DNA from: Candidatus Kapaibacterium sp.
Lineage (GTDB): Bacteria; Bacteroidota; Ignavibacteria; Kapaibacteriales; UBA4661
DNA: 48,102 nt
Assembly: GCA_025455065.1 (NCBI GenBank)
Contig: JALONG010000004.1
Location: 150,690 to 198,791 of the forward strand
Reading direction: 5' to 3'
Made by a program: the position numbers and the translations under genes. The notes under the pieces were generated by a model. That model was given only the letters and a program-made list of their open reading frames with translations, had not been told where the DNA came from and ran no database searches. Shown here in pieces: positions 24,165 through 29,035 of this stretch (positions within the stretch are counted from its first letter, which is position 1; each line of letters opens with the position of its first letter).

Positions 24165-24325
24165 GTAACTATTCAGGTCTTTGGGCGCAGATTGTCATGA
24201 TTTAGCAGATTGCGCAGATTTCCGGAGCTTTATGGGCTTGCTCACACTTTTTGTTTGCAAAAAAATCATGATAATCAGTTAAATCATGATAATCTGCGCC
24301 AAAATTTATGAACCTCGACAGTTAC
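24165..24325. repeat. MITE-like palindromic element, copy A
   Basis: About 161 bases bounded by GTAACT on the left and AGTTAC on the right. Inside, two long inverted arms pair: gggcgcagattgtcatgatt on the left and its near complement aatcatgataatctgcgcc on the right. It has no coding capacity. A second copy is at 25943-26092. It sits in the gap between ferritin and the MlaF-like gene, 19 bases before the latter's ATG. Confidence 0.75.
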
Positions 24326-24344: not shown

Positions 24345-25118
24345 ATGATTGAAATTCGCAGTTTACACAAATCCTTCGGCGCAAAAAACGTTCTGAACGG
24401 GGTTGATTTAACGATTCAAACCGGTGAAACAATGTGCGTCATCGGGCGCTCCGGGTGCGGAAAAAGCGTCCTTTTGAAGCATATTGTCGGCTTACTTGCG
24501 CCGGACGACGGAACGGTGTTTGTGGATGGGAAAGAAGTACAAACGCTGCGTGGGCGCGAACTTTTTGAACTACGGCGCGGCATCGGGTATGTCTTTCAAG
24601 GCGCAGCGCTGTTTGATTCGATGACCGTTTGGGAAAATGTCGTGCTGGGCTTGTACGAACATGGGGAACGCCACAATGAGGTTCTGGACGGCGAAGCGCG
24701 GCGCGTTCTTGCCGCAGTGGGATTGCTCCCGGATGAGGAAACATCAACTTCAGCGACCTTCGAGAAAGAATATGCAATTTTGCGCCACAAAAAACCCTCC
24801 GACCTTTCGGGAGGTATGCGTAAGCGCGTGGGAGTGGCGCGGGCGCTTGTTGGCAGCCCGAAATATATTTTGTACGACGAACCCACCACAGGACTTGACC
24901 CGATTACCTCTGAACAAATTGACAATCTCATCTTGGAACTCGCACAAAAGCTGAACGTTACCTCTATCGTCATCACGCACGATATGTTTTCGGTCTATAA
25001 AGTCGCAAAGACGGTTGCTATGCTGGAGCAAGGAACGGTGCGCTTTTTCGGTACAGCAGACGGGCTTCGCGCAAGTACGGATGAGGTTGTGCAAGAATTT
25101 ATTGAGCGGTACGAATAA
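24345..25118 (+). CDS. mlaF: MlaF-like ABC transporter ATPase
   Basis: ATPase (257 residues) of the phospholipid-trafficking (Mla/Mce) ABC family. It has Walker A GRSGCGKS, Q-loop region YVFQGAALFDSMTVWENV, signature LSGGMRKR, Walker B YILYDEPTTGLDP and the H-loop THDM. The Q-loop context and signature context are MlaF-like. Between helices before the signature it has an insert of roughly 18 residues (around DEETSTSATFEKEYAILRHKK) compared with E. coli MlaF as I remember it. The permease MlaE and the MCE protein MlaD are not adjacent, so its partner genes must lie elsewhere. Confidence 0.85.
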   Translation: MIEIRSLHKSFGAKNVLNGVDLTIQTGETMCVIGRSGCGKSVLLKHIVGLLAPDDGTVFVDGKEVQTLRGRELFELRRGIGYVFQGAALFDSMTVWENVVLGLYEHGERHNEVLDGEARRVLAAVGLLPDEETSTSATFEKEYAILRHKKPSDLSGGMRKRVGVARALVGSPKYILYDEPTTGLDPITSEQIDNLILELAQKLNVTSIVITHDMFSVYKVAKTVAMLEQGTVRFFGTADGLRASTDEVVQEFIERYE

Positions 25119-25301
25119 CAAGACAAATAACGTGCTGCTTCGGGGAAGCAAGGTTTTATCGGTGTTCTATGCTTTTTTGTCATTCCTTCAAAAAAATTCC
25201 CGCCTTTTTCTGAAAGGTTTTTTGAGACCGTGTGTCATTCTTACAAAGCCGGAAGAATGTTCAACGAGATGCTTTTTTTGCCAAAACTGCACATCAACCA
25301 A

Positions 25302-25910
25302 ATGCCCGAAATAATGCAACAACAACGCTTAGAAACGTGTAGTGATGCCGAACTCATACAGCTTTTTCACTGCTCACCCGGGCAGCGCGAAAGCGTATTT
25401 TCCGAAATCTATCGCCGTTATGCACAGCGCATCAAGATCTACTGTGTGCGAGTTGTGGGCAGTGAGGAGGACGGAAGCGATATTTTTCAAGAAACATTTG
25501 TACGATTTTTCCGCGCCGCATTCCGTGAGCCGCATGAAAAGACGATGGACAAACCGATTGACAATATCGGCGGCTATGTGATGCGGATTGCGCGGAATCT
25601 TTGCCTCAATCACAAACGCGATACAAAATCTACCGTGACCATTGACGAATGGGAACGCGCCATGCCGGATTTCCCGAATTATGAGCGCGAAGAATTGCTG
25701 AATCTTATCGCCGTAGCGCTGGAATACTTGGAGTTTGATTACCGAGAAGCCTTTGTACTGAGGTTTTATCAGGGGTACAGCTATGAAGAAATTGCCGAAT
25801 TGACGGGTGCAAGCATTTCCACCGTAACCAACCGCATTTGGCGAGCAAAAGACAAACTCAAAACTGTCTTAAAACCCTACTTGGCGGACCTTGAGGAATT
25901 TGCGGAATAG
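25302..25910 (+). CDS. ECF-type RNA polymerase sigma factor
   Basis: Sigma-70 family ECF factor of 202 residues. Region 2 runs from about residue 30 to 75 (VFSEIYRRYAQRIKIYCVR, EEDGSDIFQETFVRFFRAAF) and region 4 covers the C-terminal part (LLNLIAVALEYLEFDYREAFVLRFYQGYSYEEIAELTGAS, in two parts), with the helix-turn-helix ISTVTNRIWRAKDKL. I chose ATG 25302; ATG 25314 is nearly as good. Frames further upstream start only with GTG. The next gene (26142) codes a protein with an anti-sigma-like N-terminus, separated by a palindromic element. Confidence 0.92.
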   Translation: MPEIMQQQRLETCSDAELIQLFHCSPGQRESVFSEIYRRYAQRIKIYCVRVVGSEEDGSDIFQETFVRFFRAAFREPHEKTMDKPIDNIGGYVMRIARNLCLNHKRDTKSTVTIDEWERAMPDFPNYEREELLNLIAVALEYLEFDYREAFVLRFYQGYSYEEIAELTGASISTVTNRIWRAKDKLKTVLKPYLADLEEFAE

Positions 25911-25942
25911 CCTCCGCAGCCGACAAATACTCACGTATGAAG

Positions 25943-26092
25943 GTAACTATTTAGCTCTTCGACGCAGATTTTCATGATTAGACTGATTGCGCAGATTTTC
26001 AGAGCATTTCAGAATAGCCTTTCGATTCTTGTGAGCATACGAATAATCATGAAAATCTGTTGAATCATGAAAATCTGCGTCAAAAATTTAGG
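25943..26092. repeat. MITE-like palindromic element, copy B
   Basis: Begins gtaactatttag, as does copy A (gtaactattcag). Left arm gacgcagattttcatgatt pairs with the right arm aatcatgaaaatctgcgtc perfectly over 19 bases. The right end lacks the AGTTAC of copy A. It fills most of the 231-base gap between the sigma gene and its anti-sigma-like neighbour, so a folded RNA could affect readthrough between them. Confidence 0.78.
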
Positions 26093-26141
26093 ACATAAAC
26101 ACTTACGCTCGAAGAATGACACCACCTGAATCACACGCACT

Positions 26142-27368
26142 ATGAATTACGCTTACCTTATCCACACCTATCTCGAAGGCAGATTGGAAGAGCCTTTGGA
26201 GGATGTTCTGTTTGCAGAACTGAGCCGCGACGGGGCGCTGCGCAAAGAATTAGCAGCGCAAATCAACCTTGCCCACGCAGCAAGACGTGATGCGGCTTCC
26301 ATAACTCCCACCGATGCCGAAAAAAATGCCCTTTTTGCAGAATTGGGGCTTTCTTCAGGCACATTCGTAAGCAGTGCAGAAGGCATGACGGCACTATCCT
26401 CAATATCATCGGTCTTGCCAGCCATGCAGAGCGTCGTATTCATGCTACTCAGCAGTCTTTCACTCATGGTGGGACTTCGCAGCGATGCTCTTTGGAAAAA
26501 AGAGGCTGCAACTAGCTTGAAAACAGGACTTTCAGCAATTCATCTTCCCGTTTTTTCGATTGATGTACCCAAAGAGCGCATTGAATCACATATTAGCAGC
26601 AATGCTCCGAAAGCAAGTAATAGTGAGCCTTCCGGCGGTATGATGTATGCGGCACAGGTACTTTTGCCAAACAACACTACTGAAGCCATATTCGGCGAAA
26701 ACTCTGTGCCGACAAATGATGACGCGAAGGGTGATGTAGATGCAACACAAGCATTGATGATTCCTCCAAGCATTTCATCGGCTCTTGCATTACAGCCCAC
26801 AAAAGCCCTCACACAAACAACACAACCAACGGTTTTTTCTCGCACAAACCCGCGTCCACACACTGCTTTCCGGCATGAAAATACTGGGGACGCAAGCATG
26901 ATAGAGCAGTTCCCCGTGCAACTTGGGGTGCGGCATCTTTTGGGCGGCGGAACGTTGGGGCTGCACGGCATCGTGCAGTATGCGCTGAATAAACAGCAGG
27001 CTGTGGGTTTTGAAGGAGGCACAGAAGCCGCACGGTTGCTTACCCGCAATGCTCGAAGCGGCGAAGTCGGTATGCTGAACGCAAGCGAAGAATCGGTATT
27101 TTCCGGCACGGCGTATTATCGGCATACCTTTACCAATTTCGCATTGTTGCCCAATAAAGCGCTTGTGCCTTTTGTGCAAGGCGGCATCGGCGTTATGGGC
27201 AGATGCGGCGCTCTTCAAGGCATGGGCGGTTTTCGCTTCGATGTCGCACCGGAACTGTCGTTCACGTTGTCCGCAGAACTTAAAATGCCTGTATTCTACG
27301 CAGAGCAGCATTTTCAAAGCAAAACAGGAGTCTCTATCGGGATGCAGTACCACATTTCTGACCGCTAA
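26142..27368 (+). CDS. Anti-sigma-like protein with one membrane helix and barrel-like C-terminus
   Basis: A 408-residue protein that follows the ECF sigma gene. Residues 1-70 (YLIHTYLEGRLEEPLEDVLF, LRKELAAQINLAHAARRD) look like the helical cytoplasmic domain of FCB anti-sigma factors. A hydrophobic helix spans about 89-112. Residues 115-255 are a Ser/Thr/Pro-rich linker. From about 258 the chain resembles an outer-membrane barrel (QLGVRHLLGGGTLGLHGIVQY, GTAYYRHTFTNFALLPN, SIGMQYHISDR). I do not recognise the whole as a known family. A protein that joins a sigma-binding cytoplasmic part to a barrel-like periplasmic or outer-membrane part would be unusual; the topology is inferred, not proven. 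Confidence 0.65.
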   Translation: MNYAYLIHTYLEGRLEEPLEDVLFAELSRDGALRKELAAQINLAHAARRDAASITPTDAEKNALFAELGLSSGTFVSSAEGMTALSSISSVLPAMQSVVFMLLSSLSLMVGLRSDALWKKEAATSLKTGLSAIHLPVFSIDVPKERIESHISSNAPKASNSEPSGGMMYAAQVLLPNNTTEAIFGENSVPTNDDAKGDVDATQALMIPPSISSALALQPTKALTQTTQPTVFSRTNPRPHTAFRHENTGDASMIEQFPVQLGVRHLLGGGTLGLHGIVQYALNKQQAVGFEGGTEAARLLTRNARSGEVGMLNASEESVFSGTAYYRHTFTNFALLPNKALVPFVQGGIGVMGRCGALQGMGGFRFDVAPELSFTLSAELKMPVFYAEQHFQSKTGVSIGMQYHISDR

Positions 27369-27442
27369 GGTCGGAAAAACAATCCGTGTTCGTTTTTTAC
27401 TTCATCATCCCATGAGTATTCATGCGGTCAAGGAGATGTTTT

Positions 27443-28207
27443 ATGCAATACCGAATTGTGGGCAGAATCGTTCTTGTTGTCTTGGGAATCACGTTTGCAT
27501 CGCTGCGCCTTGCGGCACAGGAAGCGCAAGAAGATTCGGCAAAAACGAAGTTTTTGTGGATATGGCAAACGATGGGCAAAGTGCAGCCTACGCCTGTAAA
27601 CACGGGCTTGGGGGATTATTTTCAAAGGACACTCAATATCCCGTCTCGCGCTGCATCATTTCCTTCGGAATCCTTTGCTGTATCGCCTTTTAACCTCATG
27701 CTGACATACGAAAAACTGGTCTTATTCTGCGGATATAGCGCAAATCTTGGTCTGCTCCAGCCTTTTGGCTTTTACAGCACTGCCGGAAGAGTGGTGAACG
27801 TGAGTAATTATGGGGTAAATCGCACCTACCACGAACTCACTTTTGGTATCGGCTATGCTGTTATCAATACGCCCCGATTCCGCTTGTATCCTAACGTTGC
27901 GTTTACTTCGACATTAGACCACTTTATGCTGCGGTATGCGCCCACACGAGATTCGATGTACACCGCACCGCATCCCGCGCCTATTGCGGTAGAACTCTAC
28001 GGGCATCTGCTTGAATTTGCTCTCGGCGCTGATTATCGCTTGCCGCTTGCATACTTTGACATGTACATTATGGCGAAAGTTGGCTTTAATTTTGACCCTG
28101 CCTTAGCTCTGGTCAATTCTCCAAACTATCCCGAAAGGGGTGCGTGGGTTTCAAGGCGCGGTATTTTCTTTCAACTAGGCATCGGATTAGGCACAGAGCG
28201 GCGTTGA
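27443..28207 (+). CDS. Outer-membrane barrel-like protein, paralog 1
   Basis: Protein of 254 residues with a signal peptide (IVLVVLGITFASLRLAAQ), a short WIWQ motif, and repeated amphipathic strands over the rest, ending RRGIFFQLGIGLGTERR. It is a paralog of the next gene: both share F(L/W)W(I)WQ after the signal peptide, a SPF(N/Y)L segment, YAVINTPRFRLYP versus YSVVNSQRFRLYP, and the same C-terminus. A strong AGGAG (27431-27435) 7 bases before ATG 27443 decides the start over the ATG at 27422. Possibly a target of the upstream sigma factor. Function unknown. Confidence 0.72.
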   Translation: MQYRIVGRIVLVVLGITFASLRLAAQEAQEDSAKTKFLWIWQTMGKVQPTPVNTGLGDYFQRTLNIPSRAASFPSESFAVSPFNLMLTYEKLVLFCGYSANLGLLQPFGFYSTAGRVVNVSNYGVNRTYHELTFGIGYAVINTPRFRLYPNVAFTSTLDHFMLRYAPTRDSMYTAPHPAPIAVELYGHLLEFALGADYRLPLAYFDMYIMAKVGFNFDPALALVNSPNYPERGAWVSRRGIFFQLGIGLGTERR

Positions 28208-28294
28208 GCAAGGTTTAGTAGATTTTCACGAAACACATTCTCTTTTCTTTACACTGTTTCCCGCACAAGCATTGATGCGGGGTAGGAGGCTTTT

Positions 28295-29035
28295 ATGATT
28301 TCCCGAAAAAACGTGATGGCATTTTGCCTGTATCTTGCCCTGTCTGCAAGCGTTTATGCGCCTTCGCAAGCACAAGAGCAACACAGCGACACTGTTCCCA
28401 AGACGACTTCGCGCCCGTTTTGGATTTGGCAGATTTTAGCGAATTTCCAGCCCGGAAGCGCCGAAGATGCCTTTAATGCGCGTCTTGCGCAGGAATTGGC
28501 GGGGCAAGGCTCTATTCCTCGCTTCGGTTCAAACCGATTTATCATTTCGCCTTTTTACCTTTCGTGGAATCACAATAAATGGATTATCATGGCTGGGTAT
28601 AGTGGAACTTTGGGGACAGCTGTTTCAAGTTTTATATCAGGTACTGAGTATGACGAGATTTTCTACGGCTTTGGTTATTCGGTAGTTAATTCTCAGCGTT
28701 TTAGACTTTATCCTTTTATTGGCTTTCGTGGGGATATACAACGCATTACTCTTACAGAACCAACGACGTTGAGTAATGCGCTCAAAACGTTCACTCCAAA
28801 CTCTATCACAATCCAGCGTACTGCAAGTATTATCGAATTGTCAGTTGGAGCAGATTATAACTTTGCTCTTGAATATGGAGATTTGTATATCATGGCAAGA
28901 ATTGGCTATAATTTTGAATTCGGGCAGAACTGGACATTAGGAAGGCAATATCTTGCAGATGCCGACCCAAATTGGTTTTCCCGACGAGGTATTTTCTTTC
29001 ACCTCGGCATTGGATTAGGCACAGAGCGGCGTTGA
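28295..29035 (+). CDS. Outer-membrane barrel-like protein, paralog 2
   Basis: Protein of 246 residues with a signal peptide ending near SQAQEQ, then the same plan as the previous gene (PFWIWQILANFQP, YSVVNSQRFRLYPFIGF, MARIGYNFEF, RRGIFFHLGIGLGTERR). TAGGAGG at 28283-28289 lies 5 bases before the ATG. The leader is also duplicated: ATGCGG-AGGAG-TTTTATG occurs in both. The stretch from about 28590 to 28960 is clearly more AT-rich than the flanks, which may mean it was replaced by a divergent allele. Function unknown; an eight-stranded barrel is plausible. Confidence 0.72.
   Translation: MISRKNVMAFCLYLALSASVYAPSQAQEQHSDTVPKTTSRPFWIWQILANFQPGSAEDAFNARLAQELAGQGSIPRFGSNRFIISPFYLSWNHNKWIIMAGYSGTLGTAVSSFISGTEYDEIFYGFGYSVVNSQRFRLYPFIGFRGDIQRITLTEPTTLSNALKTFTPNSITIQRTASIIELSVGADYNFALEYGDLYIMARIGYNFEFGQNWTLGRQYLADADPNWFSRRGIFFHLGIGLGTERR

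Follow-up and report, generated by a model that had tools for sequence, protein, structure and literature searches.

The window analysed here is a stretch of 48,102 nucleotides from Candidatus Kapaibacterium sp., in which four consecutive genes encode an ECF sigma factor, a barrel-bearing protein resembling an anti-sigma factor and two small secreted proteins of outer-membrane type. All four open reading frames were confirmed at the coordinates given in the earlier note, and the locus is laid out as follows:

25211..25239, + strand: ECF-type promoter-like site, TGAAAGG-N13-TGTGTCATT, ahead of the sigma gene
25302..25910, + strand: ECF sigma factor, 202 aa (Pfam Sigma70_r2 E 2.2e-10, Sigma70_r4_2 E 2.4e-15; TIGR02937 E 1.3e-21)
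25911..26141: intergenic gap, of which about 165 bp (25943-26107) are a genomic repeat
26142..27368, + strand: barrel-bearing anti-sigma-like protein, 408 aa
26142..26378, + strand: N-terminal anti-sigma-like domain, residues 1-79, zf-HC2/RsiW-like without zinc ligands, by marginal matches
26421..26477, + strand: predicted single membrane helix, residues 94-112 (best window, hydropathy 1.83)
26478..26894, + strand: tether, residues 113-251 (139 aa), predicted to be disordered (pLDDT about 21-30)
26895..27365, + strand: predicted C-terminal 8-strand OmpA-like barrel, residues 252-408 (model, fold matches, alternating faces)
27422..28207, + strand: secreted small outer-membrane-type protein 1, 261 aa, paralogue of the protein encoded at 28295..29035
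28295..29035, + strand: secreted small outer-membrane-type protein 2, 246 aa, with an 8-strand OmpA-like model

The sigma gene proposed at 25302-25910 was verified, with Sigma-70 regions 2 and 4 both above the Pfam cut-off, and the presence of both regions within a short protein of 202 residues places it in the ECF sigma-factor class. An alternative start at 25314 matches that of the relative L138. At 231 bp, the gap between the sigma and anti-sigma genes lies at the long end of the family range (-119 to 247 bp), and comparison by blastn with 26 loci of the same genome and the rest of the window showed that the repeat in 25943-26107 recurs elsewhere in the genome. For the 408-, 261- and 246-residue proteins, searches of Pfam and NCBIfam with E up to 1 gave no match.

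The 408-residue protein is one of a large family that extends across its order and class, and its named relatives are Ignavibacteria MAGs (NCBI phylum Ignavibacteriota). A homology search for the gene order found the pair of sigma and anti-sigma genes again across order and class, indicating that the arrangement is not due to chance. In the loci examined, a same-strand sigma gene lies upstream of 80/80 genes for the anti-sigma-like domain, 6 of which sit in loci fetched for their sigma genes; without the sigma-fetched loci, 74 of 74 family genes (window counted) directly follow a sigma gene, as do 18 of 20 in held-out loci; the refuting case named in the earlier note, orthologues without the sigma gene, did not arise. 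Both the anti-sigma-like and the barrel domain are present in 75/80 family genes. Across 75 pairs, the correlation with the sigma factor is higher for the N-terminal domain than for the barrel (Spearman 0.575 and 0.376, partial correlations 0.51 and 0.23, respectively).

The structure model of the whole 408-residue protein is weak (mean pLDDT 49, pTM 0.38, 7 sequences), and all parts that had been read from the sequence appear in it: a helical N-terminus with four helices in residues 3-67, one long helix at 92-121 of low confidence in place of the membrane span, a linker, and a barrel-like C-terminus with eight main strands between residues 259 and 405. The supposed anti-sigma nature of the N-terminus gained marginal support from the family, in which two NCBIfam anti-sigma models matched 8 and 6 of 23 members (best E 4e-5 and 1e-4) and zf-HC2 matched 9/40 members (best E 0.0048) and the family consensus with 22.1 bits at a cut-off of 22.2. 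RsiW was the best PDB sequence match of the N-terminus, at an E-value of 1.1 that is not significant alone, and the window protein by itself matched no anti-sigma family in Pfam or NCBIfam. Residues 1-100 of the window protein contain no cysteine, and the N-terminal family alignments show no conserved Cys; the His/Cys cluster of zinc ligands is absent. Taken together, the N-terminus marginally resembles an anti-sigma domain of the zf-HC2/RsiW type without zinc ligands. A FecR-type identity was rejected, as Pfam finds no FecR domain in the 408-residue protein at E up to 1. The family carries a net charge of +98 before the helix and -36 after it; in the window protein the flanks contain 0 K/R before and 4 after the helix, which runs against the positive-inside rule, and 19/75 family members likewise have more K/R after the helix than before.

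By prediction, the C-terminal domain consists of eight antiparallel strands in an OmpA-type fold, in agreement with the barrel-like end suspected earlier. The structural alignments (VIA-align rows covering model residues 251-407) matched the crystal structures of OmpA, OprF, NspA and OmpW with Z 14.2-16.1 and rmsd 2.3-2.8 over 121-133 residues (OmpA 1qjp Z 15.5, OprF 4rlc Z 16.1). It is quite improbable, in our estimate, that this domain is instead a soluble beta barrel in the periplasm, which would make the whole protein an ordinary anti-sigma factor with one membrane span and a periplasmic sensor domain. Model confidence is modest, soluble 8-strand barrels align as well (avidin-type at Z about 9.4-10.4, designed soluble barrels at Z 11.3-12.5), and the window copy ends in ...QYHISDR, with no terminal aromatic residue. 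However, the best 15 structural rows, at Z 13.3-17.0, are all outer-membrane proteins or a designed transmembrane barrel, and F, Y or W is the last residue in 46/75 family members. In 8/8 strands tested, moreover, one face is polar or small and the other hydrophobic (mean difference 2.04 vs at most 0.91 in 2000 draws from the tether), and Gly, Glu and Arg are conserved within the barrel strands across the family, a pattern that fits a lipid-facing outside and a polar lumen. A soluble sensor would also leave unexplained why the tether has 114 residues or more in 74/75 members (estimated 114-201 aa), a length that is kept although the tether sequence is not conserved across the family. The C-terminal barrel is thus more probably inserted into the outer membrane.

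The two downstream proteins are paralogues, as had been claimed (38% and 35% identity), and both carry a Sec-type leader when read by eye, consistent with the duplicated leaders described before. Sequence homology between them and the barrel of the anti-sigma protein was not detected (10%). In the family at large, the usual third gene encodes a lipoprotein, which an automated rule recognized in 55/66 downstream genes; this rule had been loosened after inspection of misses (stricter version 26/66, background 43/774; intermediate version 50/66, background 59/642) and it errs, since L040 and L075 look false and L048 looks missed. The third-gene lipoproteins share a motif after the cysteine, about CxxPxDxDTPR. 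Its strict form, written after seeing the first set, was present in 21/55 vs 0/71 and did not carry over to held-out loci (2/9), while a five-position score of at least 3 was reached by 30/55 vs 1/71 (held-out 7/9 vs 0/5) and a score of at least 4 by 23/55 vs 0/71 (held-out 6/9). In the window's genus, OmpA-like proteins take the place of the lipoprotein. That the two OmpA-like genes are unrelated neighbours outside the system appears unlikely to us: matches to them were found in few genomes (6/61, one of them weak) and not in the family at large, but their position behind the anti-sigma gene is kept in 5/5 genomes of the same genus that match strongly (G000, G002, G004, G005, G007), they lie on the same strand, in the window after gaps of 53 and 87 bp, and related proteins are encoded downstream of the family loci L044 and L045 and, in L114, ahead of the sigma gene.

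Among 219 loci, TGAAAGG-N13-TGTGTCATT was found upstream of the sigma gene at six distinct places, window included. The site at 25211..25239 is the only exact match in the genome of 5.6 Mb, and 100 shuffles of the window gave 0 matches. A looser form showed no excess (2 vs 2 in the control), and with up to three mismatches 65 sites were found vs 38 in the control, among which further sigma targets could be hidden. At L221, for example, an S41-protease-like gene lies behind a site with two mismatches and is a possible target. Scans of the locus for sigma-70 promoters and terminators remained at chance level. We infer that the exact site acts as promoter of the operon.

Considering the gene order, domain order, family-wide linkage and conserved promoter-like site read from the sequence, and the predicted folds and topology of the proteins, we estimate a probability of roughly two in three that the locus is a self-controlled envelope-signalling operon with the 408-residue protein as trans-envelope anti-sigma factor. 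The N-terminal domain would hold the ECF sigma factor in the cytoplasm, the single helix would cross the inner membrane, a disordered stretch of about 140 residues would bridge the periplasm and the 8-strand barrel would sit in the outer membrane. A change there, in the folding, occupancy or surroundings of the barrel, might be passed down the tether and free the sigma factor, probably through regulated proteolysis or a pull. The freed sigma factor would then transcribe its own operon from the promoter-like site, yielding more sigma factor, more anti-sigma factor and the two secreted OmpA-like proteins, which could be the output and maybe also act on the barrel as its feedback partner, where most relatives have the lipoprotein. 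Alternatively, the tethered barrel could be a bait that is folded and hidden as long as outer-membrane protein assembly works, and that under overload fails to fold, remains in the periplasm and is cleaved, thereby freeing the sigma factor; the OmpA-like proteins would in that case be only regulated output. In its fold the barrel resembles an ordinary assembly substrate, and a long tether that is unstructured in the model would be open to proteases. We nevertheless regard such an assembly sensor as doubtful, because up to 12 family matches in one genome, with barrels diverged among the paralogues and different third genes, suit separate specific inputs better.

Among known systems, the trans-envelope anti-sigma factor proposed here shares with the membrane anti-sigma factors of the RsiW/zf-HC2 type a helical anti-sigma-like N-terminal domain followed by one membrane helix, and the position of the gene directly after its sigma gene; unlike these, the window family is without zinc ligands and has a tether and an outer-membrane-type barrel beyond the membrane. 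In the FecI-FecR-TonB transducer, an ECF sigma factor, an inner-membrane anti-sigma protein and an outer-membrane barrel form one line across the envelope. By analogy, sigma factor, anti-sigma factor and barrel may span the envelope in the window system too, but here one protein comprises both the anti-sigma part and the barrel, a FecR domain is absent, and no TonB receptor was seen by eye near the window locus. In RcsF-OmpA stress sensing, a lipoprotein and an OmpA-type barrel together act as the envelope sensor. This may serve as a mere analogy for the third-gene lipoprotein of the family, with the differences that a phosphorelay is lacking and that the third-gene position in the window is occupied by two OmpA-like proteins instead of a lipoprotein.

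Dma-type anti-sigma factors were reportedly first described in 2024 in PNAS. The earlier remark that the arrangement could not be matched to a described system is not supported, since, according to passages of PMC13088901, Dma of Bacteroides thetaiotaomicron has the same layout of anti-sigma domain, TM helix, disordered tether and a barrel at the C-terminus, next to an ECF sigma gene. The same passages say that Dma occurs solely among Bacteroidota, and they name no signal for the Dma barrels (PMC13088901). By prediction and across the family, the window protein has the Dma layout as defined there (PMC13088901), including one helix, a long disordered tether and an ECF sigma gene directly upstream. 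In contrast to the short Dma type, its N-terminal domain comprises about 80 aa that marginally resemble the zf-HC2/RsiW type, and the named relatives are Ignavibacteria.

Comparison of matching domains and whole profiles of the family with Dma-like proteins by hhalign gave probabilities of only 0.1-8%. The N-terminal crop reached 0.3-0.4% against the N-terminus of 15 Flavobacteriia-like proteins and 0.1% against two Dma2-like proteins, the whole profile 2.5% (E 0.018) and 2.8% (E 0.016), respectively, and the barrel 8% against the Flavobacteriia-like barrel (E 0.004 for a single comparison). As positive control, the Flavobacteriia-like and Dma2-like N-termini matched with 77% (E 2e-5); the whole Flavobacteriia-like and Dma2-like profiles reach only 30%. 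The whole profile of the family scored 20.4 bits on one Dma2-like protein and 3.9 on the other. The 20.4-bit alignment takes in the helix, the tether and the first part of the barrel; with the C-terminus of this protein shuffled, 100 copies reached at most 13.7 bits, indicating that part of the score stems from the C-terminal part; as a sign of homology to Dma it is too weak to claim. A sigma tree of 81 rows, in which 39 of the family's 75 sigmas were included, groups the das2-like with the other Bacteroidota-like sigmas on a single branch (100/99) that contains 0/39 family sigmas, so that those of the family fall outside the das2-like branch.

We see about an even chance that the Dma design was built twice, with a separate origin in the window family. 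A more elaborate version, which we consider rather unlikely, would have the family arise within the Ignavibacteria lineage by the joining of an RsiW-like domain to another OmpA-like barrel, as a triad of sigma factor, barrel anti-sigma factor and dedicated lipoprotein. The N-terminal peptide of the lipoprotein, about CxxPxDxDTPR, would engage the barrel and interchangeable ectodomains (TIG, DUF4397, Ig, propeller, serpin) would sense; in the window's genus, two self-induced OmpA-like proteins would replace the lipoprotein, engage the barrel in its stead and complete a feedback loop. A large family that has the Dma layout but distinct sequences would mean that this design either arose repeatedly or has diverged too far to be recognized, and the window family would provide independent material on what is essential, be it tether length, barrel or third gene. 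As far as passages of PMC13088901 indicate, the barrel-tipped anti-sigma design is already known from Bacteroides relatives, and in the window family it is possibly assembled from other parts. The features newly noted from sequence are the third-gene lipoprotein with its post-cysteine motif, which suggests a candidate signal partner, the OmpA-like proteins that stand in for it in the window's genus, and the promoter-like site. At the Dma2-like loci L195/L196, a lipoprotein-like third gene likewise adjoins, as seen by eye.

Re-reading of the window yielded the same positions for all four genes that an earlier note had placed there. These genes and the elements around them are:

24165–24311 and 25943–26107, two copies of a repeat of about 165 bp, rich in ATGAAAATCTG and with inverted parts
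24345–25118, ABC transporter ATPase encoded immediately before the sigma gene (best Pfam match ABC_tran)
25211–25239, promoter-like site TGAAAGG-N13-TGTGTCATT, ending 62 bp before the sigma start
25302–25910, + strand, sigma factor
26142–27368, + strand, anti-sigma-like protein of 408 residues
27422–28207, + strand, OmpA-like protein of 261 residues
28295–29035, + strand, OmpA-like protein of 246 residues

The sigma factor contains Sigma-70 regions 2 and 4, both above the Pfam cut-offs, and the other three proteins matched no family in Pfam or NCBIfam. The genome carrying the window (G000:C88) comprises 5.6 Mb, with 28 Sigma70_r2 matches, 27 of them above cut-off. The ATPase, which looks MlaF-like, does not adjoin the sigma gene in loci L137, L138 and L141. 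The repeat copy at 25943–26107 lies in the space from the sigma to the anti-sigma gene, and copies with 74–82% identity were seen elsewhere in the window and in the own-genome loci L107, L119, L123 and L124.

A search of 61 genomes (the window's own and 60 relatives) with the 408-residue protein gave matches in 47, at most 12 per genome, many of them limited to the N-terminal 90 or C-terminal 125 residues. ORFs were called in the window and 98 fetched loci, 26 of which were chosen because they contain own-genome sigma genes and one because of an outer-membrane protein match, and profiles were built from them. All 80 ORFs with the N-terminal domain are preceded by a sigma gene on the same strand, at a distance of –119 to 247 bp, and so are 74/74, window counted, when the six from sigma-fetched loci (L105, L107, L113, L114, L116, L121) are left out. 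The barrel is also present in 75 of the 80; two of the other five run off the contig and three are barrel-less anti-sigma-like proteins (L105, L116, L121). Three ORFs have the barrel only, namely a separate outer-membrane-protein-like gene, a contig-edge fragment and the L119 protein, which follows a sigma gene and has another N-terminus. The proteins L119:4477–5946 and L141:17124–18554, each encoded between a sigma gene and a lipoprotein-like gene in that order, carry the family barrel with a different N-terminal domain, indicating that the anti-sigma domain may be exchangeable. Applied to 20 held-out loci that represent other families in the class, the same simple caller found a sigma gene upstream in 18; it missed one in L205 and in L216, which lies at the end of a contig. 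A 40-row profile matched at least 98 of 197 class genomes and at least 74 of 296 phylum genomes; beyond the class, the N-terminal domain alone accounts for most of the matches listed.

In the AlphaFold2 model of the 408-residue protein (seven sequences, mean pLDDT 49), the N-terminal helices are fairly confident (about 62–80, residues 1–50), and a disordered stretch separates them from a C-terminal barrel mostly at pLDDT 60–87. Foldseek retrieved OmpA, OprF and NspA (E about 1e-5 to 1e-4), and VIA-align gave Z 16.1 for OprF (rmsd 2.4, 122 aligned), 15.5 for OmpA 1qjp (2.3, 121) and 15.2 for NspA (2.8, 130), compared to 11.3–12.5 for designed and about 9.4–10.4 for avidin-type soluble barrels. 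Across 40 members, all eight strands are hydrophobic on one face and polar or small on the other, with a mean difference of 2.04, compared to at most 0.91 in 2000 control draws from the tether. A C-terminal F, Y or W residue is present in 46/75 members, the window protein not being among them. From hydropathy and the position at which the barrel match begins, tether length is put at 114–201 residues in 74 of 75 members and 69 in the remaining one, with no sequence conservation across the family; at about 0.34 nm per residue, we estimate that 114 residues would extend about 39 nm, long enough to cross the periplasm. The family net charge of +98 before and –36 after the membrane helix (75 members) points to a cytoplasmic N-terminus. 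More K/R precede the helix in 37 members, more follow it in 19 and 19 have equal numbers; the window protein, with none before and four after, runs opposite to this trend.

The evidence for an anti-sigma identity of the N-terminal domain is consistent but marginal. Among 40 members, zf-HC2 matched nine and RseA_N three, the family consensus reached 22.1 bits against zf-HC2 (cut-off 22.2), and NCBIfam anti-sigma models matched 8/23 and 6/23 members. A PDB sequence search returned two matches only, the better being RsiW (profile positions 4–68, E 1.1), and zinc ligands are absent from the family domain. Divergence of the domain correlates with sigma divergence (Spearman 0.575, versus 0.376 for the barrel, 75 pairs; partial correlations 0.51 and 0.23), and none of 500 label permutations reached the observed value for either part.

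PMC13088901 describes exactly this arrangement of parts for Dma proteins, encoded next to ECF21 sigma genes, and presents them as confined to Bacteroidota. The NCBI taxonomy places Ignavibacteria under Ignavibacteriota; in GTDB, one phylum takes in the window and the genomes with Bacteroides-like and Flavobacteriia-like loci. Among open-licence papers we found no account of such proteins in Ignavibacteria, and those on Dma, ECF21 and anti-sigma/outer-membrane systems concerned Bacteroides, with nothing recognised on the Ignavibacteria lineage. For comparison, 15 proteins (L172–L186), here labelled 'Flavobacteriia-like', were found from a seed peptide. Two Dma2-like proteins (L195, L196) were found via DUF4943, which PMC13088901 names as a Dma neighbour. 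In their loci the sigma gene is followed by Dma, DUF4943, one more gene and an enoyl-reductase-like gene, an order that agrees with the dma2 operon described there. The N-termini of these two sets are alike (77%, E 2e-5; whole profiles 30%), whereas the window-family N-terminus resembles neither (0.1–0.4%). For the barrel, a weaker test than the N-terminus, the window family and the Flavobacteriia-like set gave 8% (E 0.004), and the family profile reached the start of one uncropped Dma2-like barrel at a low score that was partly lost on shuffling. In a sigma tree of 81 rows (39 from the family's 75, 20 further ECF sigmas of the own genome, 15 Flavobacteriia-like, five from L187–L191 and two das2-like), 38 of 39 family sigmas form one group with moderate support (86/88), the exception being L131. 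The 22 Bacteroidota-like sigmas make up a branch of their own (100/99). The window family thus has, by prediction, the defining layout of Dma and probably works in a Dma-like manner, without detected homology. Whether it originated separately from Dma is about an even bet, the alternative being extreme divergence from Dma. In L189–L191, from other Bacteroidota-like genomes, the parts are split into a sigma factor, a short anti-sigma-like protein (249–283 residues, no barrel by eye) and one or two separate secreted outer-membrane-protein-like genes.

In 66 of the 80 family loci, a same-strand gene follows within 300 bp. A lipobox rule, applied automatically and relaxed in two steps once misses had been inspected, flagged 55 of these 66, compared to 71 of the 642 remaining genes in these loci (Fisher p 1e-35). 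Of the 55, L040 and L075 look like false positives, and at least one gene, L048, seems to have escaped the rule. A motif at fixed spacing after the cysteine, about C-x-x-P-x-D-x-D-T-P-R, is frequent among the flagged lipoproteins, and 30/55 score at least three of five positions compared to 1/71 background lipoproteins, motif and score being derived from these same data. A same-strand downstream gene was present in 14 of the 20 held-out loci, and nine were flagged as lipoproteins; 7/9 reached a score of three compared to 0/5 background lipoproteins, and the strict regular expression did not generalise (2/9). A Pfam scan of 20 lipoproteins or candidates (17 of the 55, L048, the gene that follows the pair in L119 and an upstream gene from one Flavobacteriia-like locus) returned informative folds for seven (TIG, two DUF4397, serpin, PD40 propeller, Ig and, slightly below its cut-off, ASH), one weak stray match and no match for 12. 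The serpin (PF00079, E 1.4e-99) is a lipoprotein-like protein at L119:5991–7250, after an own-genome pair of sigma and barrel protein; serpin-like proteins were also seen by eye near the Bacteroidota-type loci L176 and L191. Judged by eye, a lipoprotein-like gene lies upstream of sigma in all 15 Flavobacteriia-like loci; in the two Dma2-like loci, such a gene lies downstream of the pair. The Flavobacteriia-like lipoproteins mostly have acidic residues after the cysteine, resembling the surface-export signal described in PMC5080379. On the upstream side of sigma, ten loci (L055, L056, L061, L062, L065, L066, L067, L088, L126, L127) have a second lipoprotein-like gene that is larger and has C-x-x-C at the cysteine of its lipobox.

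In the genus of the window, a secreted OmpA-like protein, or a pair of them, occupies the third-gene place, with strong matches in the same-genus genomes G002, G004 and G005 (one each) and in G007 and the own genome (two each). A sixth genome, G049, was matched weakly and elsewhere, and the other three same-genus genomes gave no OmpA-like match in that search. The model of the 246-residue protein is an eight-strand barrel (mean pLDDT 69; OprF Z 15.4, OmpW Z 14.9). The promoter-like site occurs in 13 of 219 loci. These reduce to six separate places, in every one of which the site lies a short way upstream of a sigma gene of the family, and its only exact match in the own genome is the one before the window's sigma gene. 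A looser pattern gave two matches and its reversed control also two; with up to three mismatches, 65 sites were counted in the own genome compared to 38 for the control. The simplest reading of the sequence is that the sigma factor would act through this site on its own operon, including the two OmpA-like genes. A two-mismatch copy at L221:1501–1529 lies 88 bp before a gene that by eye resembles a secreted S41-type protease and is a possible second target.
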